DNA of 64,000 bases from Echinicola marina (lineage in GTDB: Bacteria > Bacteroidota > Bacteroidia > Cytophagales > Cyclobacteriaceae), in contig NZ_CP080025.1 in the NCBI RefSeq assembly GCF_020463795.1, forward strand, positions 561,001-625,000. Direction: 5' to 3'. A model generated the notes under the pieces. The model had not been told where the DNA came from and searched no databases. It worked only from the letters and a program-made list of their open reading frames with translations. Position numbers and translations under genes: made by a program. Positions 45,418-54,451 of this stretch are shown here, piece by piece; the stretch's first letter is position 1, and each line of letters begins with the position of its first letter.

Positions 45418-46511
45418 TTACATGTAAAAGCTATACTTAATTTGGGGCTTTTGGTCTTTATCTAAGTACTTCAATATTTCTCCTACATTTCTGCTGCAAT
45501 CTATTGTTATAGGAAATTTCCTGTCAAACTGGGTGTTATTCCAATTCATTTTGGTTAGAGAAAGAATTTCATTGCAAATTTGTTCTGGTGATTCGTCATA
45601 CGAAAAAAGCCGTATTTCTATGGGACTTGGAATATATTTACCAGGATACGTTTCATAAAAGTCTACATAGCCTCTTGTGTACAAAAAATGTCTTTGCTTA
45701 TCAAGACTAAGCATGGTTCCTCTAAATGGGGGATAGCCCCCTTCACGATAAAGTCTTAAATTAGTTGGCATTATTGTGACCAAGTCCAGCGAATTTATAT
45801 TCATCTTATCTGCAACTCTTTGAAAACCCTGAACTTCTTCTTCTGAATAATTTGAACTTTTATGGATAACTAACCTTTGTGGATAAATTTTTACTGCTTC
45901 ATAATACTCCTTTAAAGAACTATAGAGTAAATCAAATGCCTGTTTCTCTGTCAAGTGAGGTTGCTTATCTTTTTTACTTTCTTTTACTGGAGTTCCTCTA
46001 AGAATTACTCCATTTCCTTGTTCATTGAATATTTGGGTTACACTTGTTTGCGTAGTTGATTTATCTCTGCTTTTATAAAAGCTAATTCCTGCGAAACAAG
46101 TATTGTTAGTGGATGCTTTTTTTAGAGCCCAAGGTGTACCTGAAGCTTTATAGTACAATGCAGTGAAAAAATTCCAAGCTATTGTAGCTTCGTCCTGCAT
46201 TTCTTTGGAAGGCTTCACAATTCTGTCTCTTACAATTTGTATAGGAATATTGTATTCCATTGACTTGGCCTTAAGCAAGCGCCTAAAATTTATTTCAATT
46301 GAAAGAGAACTTTCTTCATCTTCCTCCTCATCTATTTCAACAGTTTTGGTTCCATAAACCATATTTGTGAACTTCTCATCTAAAACACATAGGATTACGT
46401 CAGGCTTTTTATTTTTTGCCAAAAATTTTATCTCAGTAAGAAATAAATCAACTCCTTTTATAATTAAATCATCAATATCTTCTGACGACTTTTTCACCTT
46501 TTCAAATACAG
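45418..46511 (-). pseudogene. Short prokaryotic Argonaute, C-terminal part (MID end plus PIWI)
   Basis: This part encodes the PIWI domain and the end of the MID domain of a short Argonaute. Motifs are CFAGISFYKSRD, NEQGNGVILRGTP, YPQRLVIHKSSNYSEEEVQG, YPPFRGTMLSLD and FPITIDCSRNVGEILKYL. The catalytic DEDX tetrad of cleaving Argonautes is absent, as usual for short pAgos, which guide rather than cut. The frame is open up to the IS21 end at 46512, and its internal GTG at 46497 would give only a 359-residue product. Joined with the part at 49155-49475 it makes a 469-residue protein, a normal length for short pAgos. Confidence 0.9.
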
Positions 46512-46529
46512 TGTATATTCCGATTCATG

Positions 46530-46705
46530 TTGACCACCTGTTCCAGTGATGCTGACCACTTTTTTCCGATGATGTTGACCACCCCCCTTCTGGGTATCAA
46601 CTTTTGTCGAAGGGTAAAATTCCGGTGATATTGACCACTGTCAATCCGGCCATGTTGACCACCACTTTAAGTGGTCAGAATGGCCAGAATGACATTATTG
46701 ACCAC
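46530..46705 (+). repeat. Array of TTGACCAC words at the left end of IS21 element
   Basis: Copies begin at 46530, 46552 (CTGACCAC), 46575, 46631, 46655 and 46698, with an inverted GTGGTCA at 46671. Two more inverted copies lie at 49109 and 49130 near the right end. These are probable IstA binding sites; the first gene starts at 46762. Confidence 0.75.
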
Positions 46706-46761
46706 CTTTAATTTTTCAGTTATCGTTTCCTTTACGGTTGATTTAAAACCAACCGTAAAGC

Positions 46762-48309
46762 ATGGCAGGAAAAACGATAACCATGAGTAATCTCAAACAG
46801 ATAATTCGCCACCGTGACAACGGAATGGCACTGCAGACCATCTCCAAAACCTTGGGAATTGCCCGGAACACGGTCAAGAAGTACCTTCAGCTGATTGATT
46901 CCAAAGGTTTTTCTTACGGAGAGCTTTTGTCCATGAATGACGAAGAGCTTGATGCCCTACTTTCTGATCCGGACCATGTTTCAGGGGAGCGGTACCAGGA
47001 GCTTATATCTTTTTTTCCCTATATGGAACCGGAGCTTAAACGGACCGGTGTGAACCGTTGGGTCCTGTGGGGAGAATACAGACAAAAACATCCTGACGGA
47101 TACAGTTACTCACAGTTCTGTGAAAGCTTCAGGCAGTGGCGTACCGGTCTATCTGCCAGTATGAGAATTGAACATGTTCCGGGAGATAAATTCTATATAG
47201 ACTTTACGGGTGATAGGCTGTCCATAGTAGATCCTGTAACAGGTGAACTCACTGATCTGGAAGTGTATGTTGCCACACTCGGAGCCAGTCAATACAGCTA
47301 TGTAGAAGCCATTCCCTCCCAAAGAAAAGAAGACTTCATAGCAGCCACTGAAAATGCTTTACATTACCTGGGCGGTGTTCCCAGGGCCCTGGTGCCCGAC
47401 AACCTCAAAAGCGCGGTCACCAAAGCCGACAAGTATGAACCGGCCATCAACCCCGATTTCCTGGACTTTGCCAACCATTACGGCTGTGTGGTCTTTCCGG
47501 CAAGGAGCAGGAAGCCGCAGGACAAGGCCTTGGTGGAAAAGACCGTCAGCATTGTCTACAGCAGGATATACGCCCCGCTCAGAAACAAAGTTTACCATGA
47601 CATCAATACACTGAATGCGGATATACGGCACTACCTCAATATCCATAACAATACCCCTTTCCAGAAAAGACCGGAAACAAGGAAGGAGCTTTTCGACAGG
47701 GAAGAAAAGGGAACCCTGGCCCCCCTGCCTGCCGAAAGATATGAACTCAAACAGTTCAAGTATGCCACCGTCACTAAAACCTCCCACATATCCCTGAACC
47801 CTGAAAACCATTATTATTCTATTCCCTACAGGTATATCGGCAAAAAAGTCAAGGTTGTGTACTCAGCCAGTTACGTTTCTGTTTTCTACGATGGGGAAAG
47901 GATCGCTTTTCATAAAAGAAGCCTTAAGGAGCGCGGATACACTACGGTCCAGGACCATATGCCTTCAGCCCACAGGTTTGTAAGTGACTGGAACCCTGAA
48001 TTCTTCCTGAACTGGGCAAAAGGGATACATCCTGAAGTCCGGCATTATTTACAGGTTATCCTCGACAGTTACCCGTATCCGGAACAGGCCTATAAAAGCT
48101 GTCTGGGGATTTTGGGATATGATAAAAAGGCAGGCAGGGAAAGGCTCATAAACGCAGTAATACGTGCCAAACACTACAACACTTATAATTATTCGGTCAT
48201 CACCAGAATACTCAACAGCGGGATGGATTCAATCCCTTTAGATACTGAAAACAAGTCCGATAAATCAGTTGACCACGAAAACATAAGGGGAGCGGAAAGC
48301 TTCAGGTAA
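46762..48309 (+). CDS. istA: IS21-family transposase IstA
   Basis: A 515-residue DDE transposase. The N-terminal helix-turn-helix (MALQTISKTLGIARNTVKKY) binds the element ends. The RNase H-like rve core starts near residue 135, with its first Asp in GDKFYIDFTGDRLSIV, the second in ALVPDNLKSAV and the Glu in RSRKPQDKALVEKTV. A C-terminal beta-barrel-like domain (YYSIPYRYIGKKVKVVYSAS) follows. It works with IstB, encoded 29 bp downstream. The gene appears complete. Confidence 0.94.
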   Translation: MAGKTITMSNLKQIIRHRDNGMALQTISKTLGIARNTVKKYLQLIDSKGFSYGELLSMNDEELDALLSDPDHVSGERYQELISFFPYMEPELKRTGVNRWVLWGEYRQKHPDGYSYSQFCESFRQWRTGLSASMRIEHVPGDKFYIDFTGDRLSIVDPVTGELTDLEVYVATLGASQYSYVEAIPSQRKEDFIAATENALHYLGGVPRALVPDNLKSAVTKADKYEPAINPDFLDFANHYGCVVFPARSRKPQDKALVEKTVSIVYSRIYAPLRNKVYHDINTLNADIRHYLNIHNNTPFQKRPETRKELFDREEKGTLAPLPAERYELKQFKYATVTKTSHISLNPENHYYSIPYRYIGKKVKVVYSASYVSVFYDGERIAFHKRSLKERGYTTVQDHMPSAHRFVSDWNPEFFLNWAKGIHPEVRHYLQVILDSYPYPEQAYKSCLGILGYDKKAGRERLINAVIRAKHYNTYNYSVITRILNSGMDSIPLDTENKSDKSVDHENIRGAESFR

Positions 48310-48338
48310 TTATCAAACATATAACCGATCACACAATT

Positions 48339-49064
48339 ATGACACAGAGCATCGCATTGAACCAGATGTCCAAAATGAAGTTTCACGGAATGATGGAAGC
48401 ATACAAAACCATTCTGGACAGCAACAAACATCATGATCTCAATCCCGAAGAGCTTATAAACCATCTCTTGCAGGCAGAATGGGAAGAAAGAGAGAACAGG
48501 AAAATCAACAGACTGTACAAAACGGCAAAGTTCAGGTACAGTGCCACTGTTGAAGAGCTTGAGTTCTCTCCAAACCGGGGGCTGGATAAAATGCAGGTCC
48601 TCAGACTTGCTGATATGTCCTTTATTAAACGAAAAGAAAACATACTGATCACAGGAGCAACAGGGGCCGGCAAAAGCTACATTGCTTCGGCCCTGGGAAA
48701 CCAAGCCTGTATGCAAGGGGTCAGAACCCAATATTATAATACCACCAAGCTGTTCCCGAAACTCAAAATGCTGAAAGCTGACGGCTCATATATCAAAGAG
48801 ATAGCGAGAATAGAAAAACAGGATTTATTGATCCTGGATGACTTCGGCATTCAGCAACTGGATGAAATGGCAAGAATGGCCCTGCTTGAAATCATAGAAG
48901 ACCGCCATGGAAGGGCTTCAACAATAGTGGTATCACAACTTCCGGTTACAAAATGGTTCGAAACCATAGGTGACAGTACCATAGCCGACGCTATTCTCGA
49001 CAGACTGGTGCACACCGCACACAGAATCGAGCTAAAAGGAGAATCAATGAGAAAAAAACAATAA
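48339..49064 (+). CDS. istB: IS21-family AAA+ helper ATPase IstB
   Basis: A 241-residue AAA+ ATPase related to DnaC, which assembles on target DNA and activates IstA. The Walker A motif GATGAGKS is at residues 106-113 and Walker B LLILDDFG at 163-170; the sensor segment STIVVSQLPV follows. The N-terminal helical domain binds IstA or DNA. It appears complete, so the element may still be mobile. Confidence 0.94.
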   Translation: MTQSIALNQMSKMKFHGMMEAYKTILDSNKHHDLNPEELINHLLQAEWEERENRKINRLYKTAKFRYSATVEELEFSPNRGLDKMQVLRLADMSFIKRKENILITGATGAGKSYIASALGNQACMQGVRTQYYNTTKLFPKLKMLKADGSYIKEIARIEKQDLLILDDFGIQQLDEMARMALLEIIEDRHGRASTIVVSQLPVTKWFETIGDSTIADAILDRLVHTAHRIELKGESMRKKQ

Positions 49065-49154
49065 CTTTAACAGCCTCCAAACGGTAACTGAAAACCCTAA
49101 TTGAAAGGGTGGTCAGGATGACCGGATTGGTGGTCAAGATCATCGGAATATACA

Positions 49155-49475
49155 TACAGAATTGTTTATTTTACGAACGTAACTTTCGTCGTAGGAGATT
49201 TCGCTTTTAAAAGCAACTTTATTGCTAAAACCAGGGAAATTCATAAATAAATTAGGCTGGTTGCTTTTTTTAGCCTCAATATGACTTTGACAAGATTTTA
49301 TCCAACTAATTAAACTTCCAATACTATCGCTATTCCCAACAAAACCTAAAACTATTTTGTCGGGTCTTACATTTTCAAAATCTGCAACACCATATTTGAA
49401 CATTCCAGTTCTTGGACATATATGTTCCCCATCATTAAATTGCAATAAAGGCTCTTCAAGTAAACTAACTTCCAT
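49155..49475 (-). pseudogene. Short prokaryotic Argonaute, N-terminal part (MID)
   Basis: This encodes the first 107 residues of the short Argonaute. The start MEVSLLEEPLLQF, ICPRTGMFKYGVADF, the MID motif KIVLGFVGNSDSIGSLISWI and PNLFMNFPGF are characteristic of short pAgo MID domains. Beyond residue 107 the frame runs into the IS21 end (adding CIFR) and stops. The ATG at 49475 follows the stop of the SMEK-APAZ gene by 1 bp (TAGTATG), so the two were translationally coupled. Removing the element and one TACAG copy joins NNSV directly to FEKVKKSSED in frame. Confidence 0.9.
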
Positions 49476-49476
49476 A

Positions 49477-50856
49477 CTAATTTTTGTAGGTTAAATTAAG
49501 TCTAAAAGGATCACTAAAATTAATGAGATTATATTCTTCCTCATCCTCACTTAGTTTGTATTTTAAACAATATGAGATAAACATAAAATGTTGATATACT
49601 GCGTTGTTTGTTTCAAGCTTCTTTTTTTGAGTAATTAATTGGCTTTCATTTTTATGACTTTGGTAGCCATTATAGGTGTAACTCCAAGTTGGTGTAATAG
49701 AAATATACCATTTTCTTTCTGACAAGAATGATTGAATTTTGAATGATAATTGTTGAAAGTGAGTGATTTGAGTTTCATCCCTATTCCAAACCTCTTTCAC
49801 AACCGACCTCGTTGCAGTTTTTTTGTTTTTCCATTGAATTTTTCTTGATTTAAGTGACTTTGGTGGACGAAACCTAAACATCCTTTCTTTGCGTAGCCAT
49901 TGAATATCTTTTTTATTGTTTAATTCTTGGATTGAATTATCAATAAGTTTTGACAGCGCGAGTTCATATTTATATCCAATTTCAGCAAACTCATCTAATG
50001 AAAACTCTTCCACAGAACCTATCTCAACCAAATTGCTAAGTGGTTCTGAAGTTTCATCTAATGGTTTAAAAGAAATTATTTTTTTTTCAAATATGTGCCA
50101 ATCTCTACAATATGGAATTTCGAGGTATTCGAAAGCCCTATTTACAACGCTTCTTTCTGTTGAACTTTTTTTTAACTTGTATTTTGTCTCCCAAGATCTT
50201 GTTATAATCTCATCTCTATTGATACCTATGGTACCAATATAAATTTTTTCAGGCAGCTTTAATTCTAATAGGTTAGGATATAAAATTTCAGTACTTAGTT
50301 TATCCTTATTCTCTAAATTGTGTTTCCTTAATTCAAGTTTTGAGTCAGTAAACTCAAGTTCAAGTAAATCAAGAATAGTCTGAATTTTAGGAAGAGAAAT
50401 CCATGAATTGATTTCATTAAGTATGTTTTTAAAGTCAAGTATATTCTCTGATGATGAAAACTCAAAACTACCATTTATCAATTCTTCAAATTTTTCATCG
50501 CTGTATGAGCTCTGCTTTTTAGTTATTATATAAACTAATACAGTATCAAACTCATCTCGTGCTTTATGCTTTAAATATTGATTAAGAGTATGCTTTATTT
50601 TTTCTGAATTTGCAGTTGAAGTGACCTGAATTGCAACTCGATTTTCTTTATCAATTAAGTCAATTGCTGAATAATTTTTCTCATCAAGATTAGCATTCTT
50701 TAAATTTAGCCCATAAGTATTATTTAGGATTGGGATAATTACGTTTTCGGCATGAATATTTATGTCATACAAGTTTAGACTATTAAGTGTCTCTACTTCA
50801 GCTATGAACCTAGAAATAAGCTCCGAAATCCTATCAATTGTTCTTTTTCTATTCAC
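49477..50856 (-). CDS. SMEK-like nuclease domain fused to APAZ, short-pAgo partner
   Basis: A 459-residue protein encoded directly before the short Argonaute. Residues 1-120 resemble the SMEK domain: AENVIIPILNNTYGLNLKN, then SAIDLIDKENRVAIQVTS and EKIKHTLNQYLKHK. D66 and Q77-V-T79 recall the core of PD-(D/E)xK nucleases. From about residue 200 the protein looks like APAZ, the pAgo-binding domain (DWHIFEKKIISFKPL, RSVVKEVWNRDETQITHFQQ, ERKWYISITPTWSYTYNGYQ). In characterised short-pAgo systems the APAZ protein carries the effector, such as TIR, Sir2 or a nuclease, that is unleashed when a guide finds invader nucleic acid. A candidate promoter lies near 50887-50916. The gene itself is intact. 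Confidence 0.8.
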   Translation of the reverse strand: MNRKRTIDRISELISRFIAEVETLNSLNLYDINIHAENVIIPILNNTYGLNLKNANLDEKNYSAIDLIDKENRVAIQVTSTANSEKIKHTLNQYLKHKARDEFDTVLVYIITKKQSSYSDEKFEELINGSFEFSSSENILDFKNILNEINSWISLPKIQTILDLLELEFTDSKLELRKHNLENKDKLSTEILYPNLLELKLPEKIYIGTIGINRDEIITRSWETKYKLKKSSTERSVVNRAFEYLEIPYCRDWHIFEKKIISFKPLDETSEPLSNLVEIGSVEEFSLDEFAEIGYKYELALSKLIDNSIQELNNKKDIQWLRKERMFRFRPPKSLKSRKIQWKNKKTATRSVVKEVWNRDETQITHFQQLSFKIQSFLSERKWYISITPTWSYTYNGYQSHKNESQLITQKKKLETNNAVYQHFMFISYCLKYKLSEDEEEYNLINFSDPFRLNLTYKN

Positions 50857-51041: not shown

Positions 51042-51641
51042 TCAATCTATACCTAGTTCATATCTCACTTTTAACTGCTTAATACAACCGGAACACTTTC
51101 CACAGGCTAAATTTGATAAATGACAAGAATGGGCTATGGAAAGTAATTCTAATGGAACATTGTATCTATGCGCTAGTTCGTGGCTATATAAGTCTAAAGT
51201 CGGGCAATTAATACTAATTTCTCCTTCCTGATAGGATACAAGTTTATCCATATGATTATAAAATTCTTTTGTACCGTCACGATGGAAATTGTCAGATTTA
51301 ACCGATGCTAAATACATTTCGTTTACACTATCCTTTATACCTTGCATGCAAGCAAGGGTCACCAATAATTGATTTCTATAAGGCCACCATTCCTCAGATG
51401 GAGACAGACTCAAATTTTCAGAGTTTGCTAAGGTCCCTGTGCCTAAATTTCTACAATCAACATTTATAACCTTATGTTCGATACCCAATTCCCCACATAT
51501 GAATTTAGATACATATATTTCCCTTTCTGCAACTGTTTGTCCATAATCAATTGTATATGCAATATCTGGCCTAATGCCATAGGTCAAACAGATTGAATCA
51601 ATTCCTCCAGATAACAGAACGACCTTTTTTATATGTTCCAT
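51042..51641 (-). CDS. QueC-like PP-loop enzyme of a defence-type operon
   Basis: A 199-residue protein related to 7-cyano-7-deazaguanine synthase (QueC). The PP-loop SGGIDS is at residues 11-16, DYGQ at 32-35, PYRNQLLVTLAC matches the RN-containing helix of QueC, and the zinc site is C173, C180, C183 and C186. QueC converts carboxy-deazaguanine to preQ0 through an adenylated amide. It is shorter than housekeeping QueC and no other queuosine gene is near. QueC homologues also serve in defence systems (Cap9 in type IV CBASS, QatC in Qat). Its start overlaps the PfkB-NDT gene by 13 bp, so the two are translationally coupled. The same gene could alternatively be a divergent biosynthetic QueC. 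Confidence 0.85.
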   Translation of the reverse strand: MEHIKKVVLLSGGIDSICLTYGIRPDIAYTIDYGQTVAEREIYVSKFICGELGIEHKVINVDCRNLGTGTLANSENLSLSPSEEWWPYRNQLLVTLACMQGIKDSVNEMYLASVKSDNFHRDGTKEFYNHMDKLVSYQEGEISINCPTLDLYSHELAHRYNVPLELLSIAHSCHLSNLACGKCSGCIKQLKVRYELGID

Positions 51642-52819
51642 ATTGTTTGGTATATGGCAGTTGTTAAATGATTAAAAGTTTTTATATCTCCAGGTTTTAG
51701 CATTAATAGCTCACCCTCATTACAGGTACGGTGATATCCAATTATCTTTTTCCTTTTCGCTAATGAATAGCCTGATTCTACCAAAGTACCAGAATCTATA
51801 TTATCAAAGACACAAAAGATAATGTCTGAATTTTCAATTCCTTCAATATCCTTCTTAGCAAGAGTTACATCATCACCTAATCCAACATCATGAAAAGGAG
51901 AAAAAACTTTCACCCCAAAAGCTAGAAATGCTGTGCGTATTTTATCAATTAAAATCAATTCAGATATCGAAAAAAATGGAGCTGCCAAATACACTTGTTT
52001 TCCTGAAAGCTCTCTTTTTTTAAATTCCTGATATTCAAATCCTTCAATATTACTGCTATCTACATATACTTTTTTATCACAAAAGTAAGCGGTCGATTTA
52101 GAAGCATTTAGTGCAGACTCCTCTAACGAGAGTTGTTTTTCCATCCAATAATAACCGAAACTTGAGGTGAAAATATCCCCAGAACCAATTTTATTTACAT
52201 TATTAGTAACAAAAGAAGGTATATGAAACTCCTTATTATCAGAATAAAGAGTGGCACCAAAAGGTCCATTTTTTATGATAAGTGCTTTGACTTTTTCTCT
52301 TCTATAAAAGTAGTCTTTAATGTCATTTATATTTTTACTGGAAGCGATAGATTGCGCTTCACTTAAATTCAACACGTAAACTAATTCTTCCGCCTTACCA
52401 ATTTGACTAAAGCTTTTTGGTTTTAAGGATGTTTGAGGGTCATAGACTACTTTATTTCCGGTCAATTGGAAATCTGATTCAAGCATCCCAAAAGCTATAA
52501 TATTCCCAGAATCAACTTTAATATCTTCTGATTTAGGTATGTTCAAAAGGTTGGGAAAAATAGTTGGTTGATCCAATGAAAAACTATATTTGAATGTAAT
52601 TAGGTCATCATAATTCGTGTATTCGAAAGTAAAATCACTGTATACTTTTTGATTCTCTTTAAGAAAGTTTAAAGTTTCAGCATTACCAGTGGAATAAAGA
52701 TGAACAGGGCAATTATTTTCCAGTAAAAATTTAGCTCCTCTGAAACCAGACCCAAAAATATCCAATGAAATATCGTCGTAATCAATTTCTCGGTAAGTTC
52801 CTCCTACTACTGTTATCAT
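51629..52819 (-). CDS. PfkB-like kinase fused to nucleoside deoxyribosyltransferase
   Basis: A 396-residue two-domain protein. Residues 1-265 have the PfkB/ribokinase pattern: MITVVGGTYREIDYDD, FGSGFRGAKFLLE, and the anion-hole motif GSGD at 212-215. Residues 274-396 match nucleoside 2-deoxyribosyltransferases: QVYLAAPFFS, then SDIIFCVFDNIDSGTLVESG with the likely catalytic Glu at 348. One part would phosphorylate a sugar or nucleoside; the other would exchange a base on a (deoxy)ribose. The ATG at 52819, preceded by AGGAAATAATT, is preferred over a longer frame to 52849. It is the middle gene of a three-gene operon with a small Gly-rich protein and a QueC-like enzyme. Confidence 0.82.
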   Translation of the reverse strand: MITVVGGTYREIDYDDISLDIFGSGFRGAKFLLENNCPVHLYSTGNAETLNFLKENQKVYSDFTFEYTNYDDLITFKYSFSLDQPTIFPNLLNIPKSEDIKVDSGNIIAFGMLESDFQLTGNKVVYDPQTSLKPKSFSQIGKAEELVYVLNLSEAQSIASSKNINDIKDYFYRREKVKALIIKNGPFGATLYSDNKEFHIPSFVTNNVNKIGSGDIFTSSFGYYWMEKQLSLEESALNASKSTAYFCDKKVYVDSSNIEGFEYQEFKKRELSGKQVYLAAPFFSISELILIDKIRTAFLAFGVKVFSPFHDVGLGDDVTLAKKDIEGIENSDIIFCVFDNIDSGTLVESGYSLAKRKKIIGYHRTCNEGELLMLKPGDIKTFNHLTTAIYQTIWNI

Positions 52820-52821
52820 AA

Positions 52822-53139
52822 TTATTTCCTGCTGATTTGAACTAGACAAGAAGGAGAATTAATATTTAAAATTTCTGCTTCATATTGAGCCCCTTCGTTG
52901 ATACAGTTTATTATATCAGTAGTATTTCTATGAAGAATAGCCCCAAGAATTTCTCCATTACCATCTTCTAATACCAGAGCTCCATTGTTTCCTATTATTA
53001 CATCTAAAATATCCCCTACAATATGGTTAGAAAGTACTTCCAAATCTACTGAAGAAACGGTGGAATTAATTATGCCAGTGTCACAATCAAATTTCGCTCT
53101 TTGTGGTGGGGCATACCCACCGCCACTTGATCCACTCAT
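52822..53139 (-). CDS. Small glycine-rich-N-terminus protein, possible substrate of QueC-like enzyme
   Basis: A 105-residue protein of unrecognised family. It starts with a flexible MSGSSGGGYAPPQRAKFD tail. The remainder is a compact beta-rich domain with the pattern VGDILDVIIGNNGALVLEDG followed by GEILGAIL and INCINEGAQYEAEILNI, loosely like a HIRAN-type fold. There are no membrane segments or catalytic motifs. It is the first gene of the QueC-like operon; its stop is 2 bp before the next start. The exposed N-terminal glycines could be the acceptor for a modification made by the neighbours; that is a hypothesis. Confidence 0.75.
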   Translation of the reverse strand: MSGSSGGGYAPPQRAKFDCDTGIINSTVSSVDLEVLSNHIVGDILDVIIGNNGALVLEDGNGEILGAILHRNTTDIINCINEGAQYEAEILNINSPSCLVQISRK

Positions 53140-53222: not shown

Positions 53223-53252
53223 CAAAAAAAATACCCCAACTAGGGTATTTTT
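53223..53252 (-). terminator. Intrinsic terminator of the Mrr-like gene
   Basis: Stem AAATACCC / GGGTATTT with a 6-base loop, followed on the minus strand by a run of T residues, 183 bp past the Mrr-like stop. It isolates the QueC-like operon from read-through. A degenerate relative of the same hairpin, with the same CCAATCC tail, occurs at about 54588-54620. Confidence 0.75.
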
Positions 53253-53434: not shown

Positions 53435-54451
53435 TTAATATTCGCCTATGTTTTCTAAATCTTTAATCTCTTTTTTGACTAAATCCTTTTTCAACTCCCA
53501 TTCCTTTTGACAAACCTTATTTTCTGTCAGATAAGGATAAACGTTGTCAATTAGGGATTGCATAGTTTTCCTAAACTGTATTTTAAGGGTTCCTCTAGAT
53601 ATCTGGTTAAGATTATCGGCATTTGAACCAACTAGTTTTAAGTATTTTAACGTTTCCCAAACTTGAGTATCAAAATTATCAATATTATCTAGGATTTGAC
53701 GCTCAACACTTCCAATTAATGAATGGGAATTCTCACAAAAATTATTTCTTAATTTCTTAATATTTTCTTTTTCCTTTTCGATAGAAACTAATAATTCTTG
53801 CACAACTATTTTGGCTTCACTATGAAAATCTGAGAGAGTTGAAATTACTTCATGCATAGTATCACATTTTTTACTTTCTGAATTAACCCCTCTTAGTATT
53901 ATTGGTAATTGACCATTAAGTACTTTTTGTATATCTAAGGTAAGATACATCAGATTTCCATCAATTAGAACTGATTTATCAAAGTCTAAGTTGGAGAGAG
54001 GGTTGAAATTGAAATTGTCATCAATCCAAGATGTTTTTATTATTGATTTGATTCTTTCAAAGTCTTTTAAGTAAAACAAAAGTTGATGTTCAAATAAATT
54101 ATTTTTTATAATTTCATTTATCTCATCAGTACTTGCAAGAACTATATTTGTGTTATTAACTGCTCTTACAGCGCCTGATTGAAATCCACTTTCAGAAAAA
54201 AGGAATGCTTTGTCTGCGCCAACATCTTTAGATATTTCATAAAGTGCCAGTACCTTCTCTTTTGGTACTGCAGAATTCCAGTATTTGCATTCGCAAATCC
54301 AAATCATTTTGATTCCAAATTTTTCTAATTCAACAAACACATCAACTTCATGAATTCCCCTGACTCCCTCTACCTTTTTTTCGATGGTAGTGGAAGCTCC
54401 AATTGAGTTAAATATAGAAGCAACTTGATTTTGATACTCTTTCCAATTCAT
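53435..54451 (-). CDS. Mrr-like restriction endonuclease with helical C-terminal region
   Basis: A 338-residue protein. Residues 1-115 are a PD-(D/E)xK domain of the Mrr_cat type: YQNQVASIFNSIGA, D37 in GIHEVDVFVE, and E54-x-K56 in WICECKYW, followed by KAFLFSESGFQSGAVRA. The remaining 220 residues are mostly helical, with coiled-coil tendency near SIEKEKENIKKLRNN, and have no recognised family. Mrr-type nucleases cut modified or foreign DNA, and this one has no methylase partner, so a type IV-like or effector role is likely. It is a single-gene unit. Confidence 0.83.
   Translation of the reverse strand: MNWKEYQNQVASIFNSIGASTTIEKKVEGVRGIHEVDVFVELEKFGIKMIWICECKYWNSAVPKEKVLALYEISKDVGADKAFLFSESGFQSGAVRAVNNTNIVLASTDEINEIIKNNLFEHQLLFYLKDFERIKSIIKTSWIDDNFNFNPLSNLDFDKSVLIDGNLMYLTLDIQKVLNGQLPIILRGVNSESKKCDTMHEVISTLSDFHSEAKIVVQELLVSIEKEKENIKKLRNNFCENSHSLIGSVERQILDNIDNFDTQVWETLKYLKLVGSNADNLNQISRGTLKIQFRKTMQSLIDNVYPYLTENKVCQKEWELKKDLVKKEIKDLENIGEY

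Follow-up and report, generated by a model that had tools for sequence, protein, structure and literature searches.

A sparse three-gene operon of bacteria and archaea, pairing a QueC-like enzyme with a Gly/Ser-tailed small protein, as a probable nucleobase-protein conjugation module

The window analysed here, a stretch of 64,000 nucleotides from Echinicola marina (RefSeq assembly GCF_020463795.1, contig NZ_CP080025.1, positions 561,001 to 625,000), carries on its − strand, from position 53139 to 51042, an operon of three genes that in the open reading frame (ORF) listing encode, in this order, a 105-residue small protein, a fusion of a PfkB (ribokinase-like) domain with a nucleoside 2-deoxyribosyltransferase (NDT) domain, and a 199-residue QueC-like enzyme. 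The trio is a widespread but sparse operon of bacteria and archaea, and is probably an immune module that works by QueC-type conjugation of a nucleobase to a protein, with the small protein as the likely acceptor of 7-carboxy-7-deazaguanine (CDG). The small protein, the probable acceptor (52822..53139, − strand), joins a Gly/Ser tail, MSGSSGGG, to a predicted HIRAN-like β-domain spanning about residues 19-105. The fusion (51629..52819, − strand) has 396 residues from an ATG at 52819, although it could also begin further upstream, at a TTG at 52849 (52849-51629, 406 residues), and the QueC-like PP-loop/zinc enzyme (51042..51641, − strand) fits the published PF06508 'cluster 4'. The tight coupling of the genes had been described in an earlier reading of this DNA made from its letters only (the sequence-only reading), and the ORF coordinates and the ATG at 52819 confirm it: the small gene's stop is separated from that ATG by a 2-bp gap, and the fusion and QueC genes overlap by 13 bp.

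Co-occurrence of the three families outside this genome had been set beforehand as a test of that reading. Of 53 loci, 51 reach far enough upstream to be read, and in every one of these the small gene immediately precedes the PfkB-NDT and QueC genes, in unchanged order and with the genes tightly spaced or overlapping; given this constant order, the trio is more than a chance grouping. The 53 loci comprise the window, 15 plasmid loci, 26 genome loci and 11 from phylum samples, and four pairs among them (L010/L017, L014/L103, L011/L027 and L023/L025) consist of identical or almost identical sequences. On plasmids, a tblastn search with the fusion returned 37 records, 25 of them covering at least 80% of it; for two Rhodobacterales plasmids the small gene is absent from PLSDB's incomplete gene table, yet present in the DNA. 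A pattern and tblastn scan of 84,980 species genomes, made with eight aligned QueC sequences, placed at least 26 family members (L015-L040, at least 34% identity) among the best 80 of 98 relatives, the remainder of those 80 being more distant and mostly canonical QueC. Phylum samples gave 7/395 Bacteroidota (four weaker matches of 91-93 bits uncounted, this genome included), 6/398 Pseudomonadota and 1/396 Actinomycetota, the last two counts including the centre genome. By the names in the record titles about eight phyla are represented, Pseudomonadota, Bacteroidota, Campylobacterota, Verrucomicrobiota, Planctomycetota, Actinomycetota, Cyanobacteriota and the haloarchaea. An alignment scan of IMG/VR found at least five viral contigs (L139-L143) with this QueC, at 42-44% identity among the best 80 of 124 relatives; four hold all three genes (the QueC of L143 being cut by the contig end), and the fifth begins at QueC. 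A phage origin of the operon was considered and rejected: one phage record was matched, by the NDT part only, and a single-protein viral scan found none.

The window's small protein begins MSGSSGGG (N-terminal letters MSGSSGGGYAPPQ; MSGSSGGGYAPP) and has no match in Pfam, PADLOC or NCBIfam. Across the family residue 2 is Ser in 44/51, Gly in 5/51, and Cys and Thr in 1/51 each, and residue 3 is Gly in 50/51 and Ser in 1/51; in 35/51 no other start codon of the ORF precedes the M-[SGTC]-[GS] start, and in 16/51 this start was picked over an upstream one. We scanned for this kind of tail (M-[SGCT]-G with at least five Gly/Ser among residues 2-9, no more than 3 kb from a QueC gene), and found it in 39/53 system loci versus 5/54 other QueC loci, the latter set, also used for the tree below, taking in a cyclic oligonucleotide-based antiphage signalling system (CBASS) locus, L053, and another variant, L043. 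Two of those five matches are the QueC gene itself and two are unexplained single matches; the fifth is a CD-NTase-like protein of L053 starting MGGSGGSYF, so the scan recovered the known CBASS kind unprompted. Three haloarchaeal small proteins (L008 3375-4034, L097 3369-4004 and L098 2916-4004) seem by eye to hold the β-domain twice; their tails read MCGGGS, MGGGGSS and MGGGSGG, respectively, and L098 also has a long acidic linker.

A structure model of the small protein, built from 24 sequences, has a mean pLDDT of 90.3, falling to about 62 over the first ten residues. Its best solved Foldseek match is 3k2y (E 9.4e-4), followed by the HIRAN domains of HLTF (E 3.0e-3 and up, probability 1.00, TMq about 0.60) and, further down, by Rad5 (0.061) and the Hachiman HamB protein (0.26), while profile comparison of the family with five HIRAN sequences by hhalign gave E 2.5e-5 (probability 75%). 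The protein is predicted to have a HIRAN-like fold, resembling a DNA-end-binding domain; the HIRAN domain of HLTF binds the 3' ends of single-stranded DNA. It shares predicted fold and profile match with the HIRAN proteins HLTF and Rad5 (PF08797), but differs from them as a stand-alone domain with a Gly tail and without the Pfam HIRAN match, which was sought in two family members. A PDB sequence search with the small-protein profile gave no match.

The QueC-like enzyme matches PF06508 (E=5.4e-19) and carries the zinc motif CH(x)5CxxCxGCxK (CHLSNLACGKCSGCIK), but its score against TIGR00364, the model of canonical QueC, is 61 bits, below the cut-off of 150.3. Among the 53 family sequences the PP-loop and zinc-site Cys are kept in at least 51, and Y33, G34, E41, R89, N90, D117, D122 and G123 are invariant; each residue of Y33-G34-Q35-(x)5-E41 is kept in at least 52/53, the motif being one residue shorter than the YGQ(x)6E printed for cluster 4. 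The canonical YPDC substrate motif is absent and reads HRDG in the window, its Asp and Gly being kept in 53/53. D122, likewise kept in 53/53, aligns with D117 of Cap9, the Asp that reads the guanine edge (PMC13279940). Searched against the PDB, the QueC profile met two QueC entries (2pg3 and 3bl5) and Cap9 (9nto), while a sequence match with the single window QueC met none, and a GSG[DE]L.G stretch is common to Cap9 and the family. In a quick tree the 53 system sequences form one clade (SH-aLRT 100), with Cap9, TIR-linked and canonical sequences outside it, the order among these being unsure owing to long branches. Neither outcome that would have refuted the sequence-only reading, a lack of co-occurrence in other genomes or grouping with canonical QueC, was observed, and that reading is supported.

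Most host genomes also have a gene for the supply of the candidate base. The operon continues with queD and queE in two actinobacterial loci, L037 and L040, whose genomes have no QueC above the TIGR00364 cut-off. A QueE match above 100 bits is found in 22/27 host genomes, including 8 of the 13 without canonical QueC, PTPS/QueD matches in 20/27, and canonical QueC is also present in 14/27. The Echinicola marina genome has a QueE-profile match of 144.9 bits and three PTPS/QueD matches, but canonical QueC is absent from it. In a sample of 19 genomes taken around it and including it, QueE occurs in 18 and a QueC match of any kind at E<=1e-8 in two. Making CDG in the absence of canonical QueC therefore looks normal for this lineage, which argues that the operon does not provide the lineage's housekeeping QueC. 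Downstream of the operon in L014 and L103 there is a transporter of the VUT family, with an annotation for queuosine salvage. A genome of the same genus (G1221, C29:210123-210722) has a different QueC-family gene, scoring 94.8 bits.

The fusion matches PF05014 (E=2.9e-12) and PF00294 (E=9.8e-9, through the C-terminal part of that model only), and its AlphaFold model (pLDDT 91.5) shows the first part to be a whole ribokinase-like domain; the QueC-like, NDT and PfkB assignments of the sequence-only reading are borne out by Pfam and by this model. The solved structures nearest to the first part include inositol, sugar and pseudouridine kinases, and by profile the NDT part is nearest to nucleoside 2-deoxyribosyltransferases. 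A PfkB-NDT ORF of at least 300 residues is present in 51/53 loci, the contigs of the other two ending within that region, and the active-site residues, the GSGD Asp and the NDT Glu, Thr and Asp, are each kept in 51/51.

For one immune system the conjugation of a nucleobase to a protein by a QueC-family enzyme was reported in 2025, the year of a preprint on deazaguanylation (PMC11996544), and for another it has been proposed. Cap9 joins CDG to the N-terminal amine of its CD-NTase. The parallels of the operon to type IV CBASS (Cap9 QueC, Cap10 TGT-like, CD-NTase) are strong. Both combine a QueC-family enzyme, an M-G/S-G-tailed partner and an enzyme of a base-exchanging family, and the PADLOC 'OGG' family adjoins QueC in four system loci; however the partner here is HIRAN-like and has mostly Ser2, and the NDT-PfkB fusion replaces Cap10. 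The PADLOC matches of ten window proteins scanned include neither a CD-NTase nor a TGT-like Cap10. Two loci outside the system show the CBASS arrangement: in Pseudanabaena (L095) QueC occurs with a TGT-like gene (PADLOC TGT 6.5e-110) and an annotated CBASS oligonucleotide cyclase starting MGGSGGG, and in the operon of L053 the CD-NTase-like MGGSGGSYF protein is accompanied by a TGT-like gene, by a PADLOC 'OGG' and by a QueC which the tree places with Cap9. The operon likewise shares with qatABCD a QueC-family enzyme and a partner with an exposed N-terminal Gly motif, but QatC has about 400 residues and Thr/Thr in the base site, QatB is helical and there is no NDT-PfkB, whereas the window enzyme has 199 residues with His/Asp at the base site and the small protein is β-rich. 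No QatA or QatD match was found among the ten window proteins. Gao et al. 2026 (PMC13279940), who treat Qat and CBASS, state that QatB and QatC can suffice for defence, and that QatC has lost the CDG-binding residues, yet needs the N-terminal Gly motif on QatB.

A further arrangement is seen in Rhizobium (L096 2685-7047) and Agrobacterium (L013 4013-8413), where QueC, an HhH glycosylase, a PfkB-like protein and two TIR proteins are encoded together. The small TIR protein adjoining QueC begins MGGGSSG in Rhizobium and MGGGGGG in Agrobacterium, and is the probable acceptor there. The PfkB protein of these loci is related to the fusion (254 and 249 bits), so that QueC, glycosylase, PfkB protein and tailed partner are all held in common with the operon; they differ in having a TIR protein as partner, an NDT part whose Glu is lost, and a Cap10-like stretch within the second TIR protein (blastp E 8e-16 and 2e-11). 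That the NDT domain is dead or absent where a Cap10-like domain occurs suggests both base-exchanging families play one role, an idea resting on few loci (L095, L053, L096 and L013). In a Bacillaceae metagenome-assembled genome (MAG) four genes stand in a row (L043 6014-9989), with a PfkB-NDT fusion and then QueC placed between an OGG-like gene and one for an HD-type protein; the tail scan found no small tail protein in this locus. The conserved tail, also present on the CBASS CD-NTase and the QueC-adjoining TIR proteins, the glycosylase family shared with CBASS, and queD and queE within two of the operons all raise the likelihood of the small protein being the modified partner, as the sequence-only reading proposed.

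That reading had also not recognised the set as a described system, which, as far as the literature was searched, holds for the small protein and not for its neighbours. The QueC/PfkB-NDT pair was printed as PF06508 'cluster 4' by Libby et al. 2026 (PMC13329287), who suggest purine salvage and give the PF00294-PF05014 fusion in about 89% of neighbourhoods; two marks of the cluster, the CH(x)5CxxCxGCxK QueC-like gene and the adjoining fusion, are present in the window. The account differs from ours in that its main text is without the terms 'small protein', 'HIRAN', 'glycosylase' and 'nitroreductase', and literature searches, several with incomplete listings, found no account of the small protein or of the trio. 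The gene pair is therefore known and the third gene is new as far as searched, and this third gene changes the likely meaning of the pair.

Further genes recur around the trio. The gene after QueC matches the PADLOC 'OGG' profile PDLC00910 in L126 (5.5e-80), L127 (1.4e-33) and L128 (2.3e-36), and in L031 a relative, by profile, takes this place; PDLC00910, which we take to stand for the OGG of type IV CBASS, also matches the gene in the L053 CBASS operon (2.7e-64). An OGG of PF22175 type occurs in a further 38/53 loci, with the HhH Lys and Asp kept in 38/38, and six of these proteins scanned with PADLOC gave no match. An OGG as an obligatory part was rejected, 42/53 loci having one (38 PF22175-like and four PADLOC-OGG-like) and 11 having none seen, two of the latter on contigs cut upstream; in the genome of the window itself no match to PF22175 was found at E<=0.001. 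SagB-family oxidoreductases occur in 35/53 loci and Dam-type methylases in 14/53. A Dpd-like DNA deazaguanine modification, to which the recurrence of Dam and OGG could point, was set aside, as no TGT-like protein was seen among the ten window proteins scanned. Genes of HD dGTPase type adjoin the operon in eight system loci (L007 5792-7282 and L011 8376-9224, annotated anti-phage in both, and six more) versus one control locus, and deoxyguanosine from these enzymes could feed the NDT domain. As to the enrichment near defence genes that the sequence-only reading proposed to test, 116 system neighbour ORFs matched 133 PADLOC families at E<=1e-10 and 114 control ORFs matched three, in a tally of families rather than proteins whose controls are mostly MAGs of other phyla and whose system set includes the Dam and PADLOC-OGG genes, counted as parts or recurrent neighbours. 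This test drew on 30/53 loci; of the 131 control ORFs prepared, 114 were used, L090-L094 and two others being omitted.

The surroundings in the window are also rich in defence genes, as had been claimed, PADLOC identifying within 45418-50856 an Aga_REase (SMEK) protein and a pAgo_I gene that is split in two. The pAgo_I pieces (49475-49140 and 46497-45418, covering profile positions 1-103 and 115-455) are separated by a two-gene transposon (46762-49064, IS21-like by eye), and the Aga_REase/SMEK protein (50856-49477) adjoins them, which we read as an Argonaute system broken by insertion. Upstream of the operon a Mrr-type endonuclease gene (53435..54451, − strand) is a recurrent neighbour and not part of the core, its relatives adjoining the operon in 5/53 system loci versus 0/53 control loci. 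Between it and the first gene of the trio, on the same strand, lies a terminator-like hairpin (53227..53252), a consensus match in a region where two such hairpins were found versus 1.1 expected.

Computation shows the gene order and its conservation, the active-site residues, the small protein's predicted fold, the QueC clade and the genes for CDG, while the adduct, the sequence in which it is made, the part played by NDT and PfkB, and defence against phage are inferred. Removal of the initiator Met would leave Ser2 of the small protein at the N-terminus (in a few members Gly, Thr or Cys), and the QueC-like enzyme would adenylate CDG, taken from host QueD/QueE or from queD and queE within the operon, and join it to the N-terminal amine, as Cap9 does. 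The tethered base would then receive a (deoxy)ribose from the NDT domain and a phosphate from the PfkB domain, leaving a tail that ends in a nucleoside or nucleotide. The HIRAN-like domain could bring this tagged tail to nucleic acid ends, where OGG-type glycosylases, if present, would join in.

An extension of this scheme, in which the front end of the protein becomes a nucleotide through azole formation and is delivered to phage DNA ends, is speculative and on balance improbable. Here the two ATP steps of QueC would form a deazaguanine-Ser2 amide and then activate it, the Ser, Thr or Cys side chain would close an azoline ring, and the SagB-family oxidoreductase would oxidise this to an oxazole or thiazole; NDT would add deoxyribose, perhaps from dGTPase products, PfkB a phosphate, and the HIRAN-like domain would deliver the protein-borne nucleotide. 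Residue 2 is Ser in 34 and Thr in one of the 35 SagB loci, and Ser in ten, Gly in five and Cys in one of the 16 readable loci without SagB, so that Gly2 occurs in 0/35 versus 5/16 (Fisher p=0.0019, among sequences that are related and not independent). Azoline oxidases carry a Lys-Tyr pair, however, and while the Tyr is kept in 35/35 of the SagB proteins the Lys is present in 19/35; the SagB score against TIGR03605, 44 bits, is also below its cut-off of 78.

Several observations weigh against conjugation of CDG to the small protein. NDT and PfkB/ribokinase-fold enzymes usually act on free nucleosides, and the would-be acceptor is mostly Ser2, where the CBASS and Qat partners have Gly2. The window's copy is without OGG and without SagB anywhere in the window. 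The Tyr that stacks in the CDG site is replaced in 51/53 sequences (His 49/53, Phe 2/53, Tyr retained in 2/53), and no QueE match above 100 bits was found in 5/27 hosts (four MAGs and one isolate draft). The last two points would also fit a similar protein modification with an acid other than CDG, as is suspected for QatC, which lacks the CDG-binding residues yet depends on the Gly motif of QatB (PMC13279940). We regard this as improbable, since queD and queE lie inside the operon in L037 and L040, the guanine-edge Asp is kept throughout, and the transporter with queuosine salvage annotation lies downstream in L014 and L103.

The habitual substrates of the fusion's two domains likewise suit a route in which the joint product of QueC, NDT and PfkB is a modified nucleoside or nucleotide in free form, for salvage or as an antiviral analogue, and the HIRAN-like small protein is an unmodified sensor or carrier. 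The intact residues of both fusion active sites and the adjoining HD dGTPase-type genes, as a source of deoxyguanosine, agree with such a route, and purine salvage is how Libby et al. take cluster 4 (PMC13329287). It leaves unexplained, however, why a tail of small residues and Gly is kept from haloarchaea to Bacteroidota and recurs on other QueC partners, and the operon's sparseness, its presence on plasmids and its defence neighbours give it an unlikely look for housekeeping salvage; we consider this route a minority prospect, unlikely without being negligible. Ordinary queuosine or DNA-deazaguanine biosynthesis, with the third gene as the genome's QueC, would account for the PF06508 match and for a genome with PTPS/QueD and QueE but no canonical QueC, but it is very improbable: a housekeeping queuosine QueC was rejected on the TIGR00364 score, on the separate clade and on the control in relatives, and canonical QueC is present in addition to the operon in about half of the hosts. 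Coincidental neighbourhood on a mobile island, to which the transposase-like ORFs near the operon might point, is scarcely credible given the same order of tight or overlapping genes in every readable locus. CDG conjugation to the small protein, in an immune setting, remains the probable function of the operon.

If so, the trio would be a further QueC conjugation system, present in bacteria and archaea and with a different, HIRAN-like partner, which has a component family in common with type IV CBASS and whose enzymes could extend the tethered base to a nucleotide. As a test object it has three genes, and its substrate, the source of that substrate and the residue that probably accepts it can all be specified beforehand; what purpose the conjugated base serves thereby becomes directly testable.

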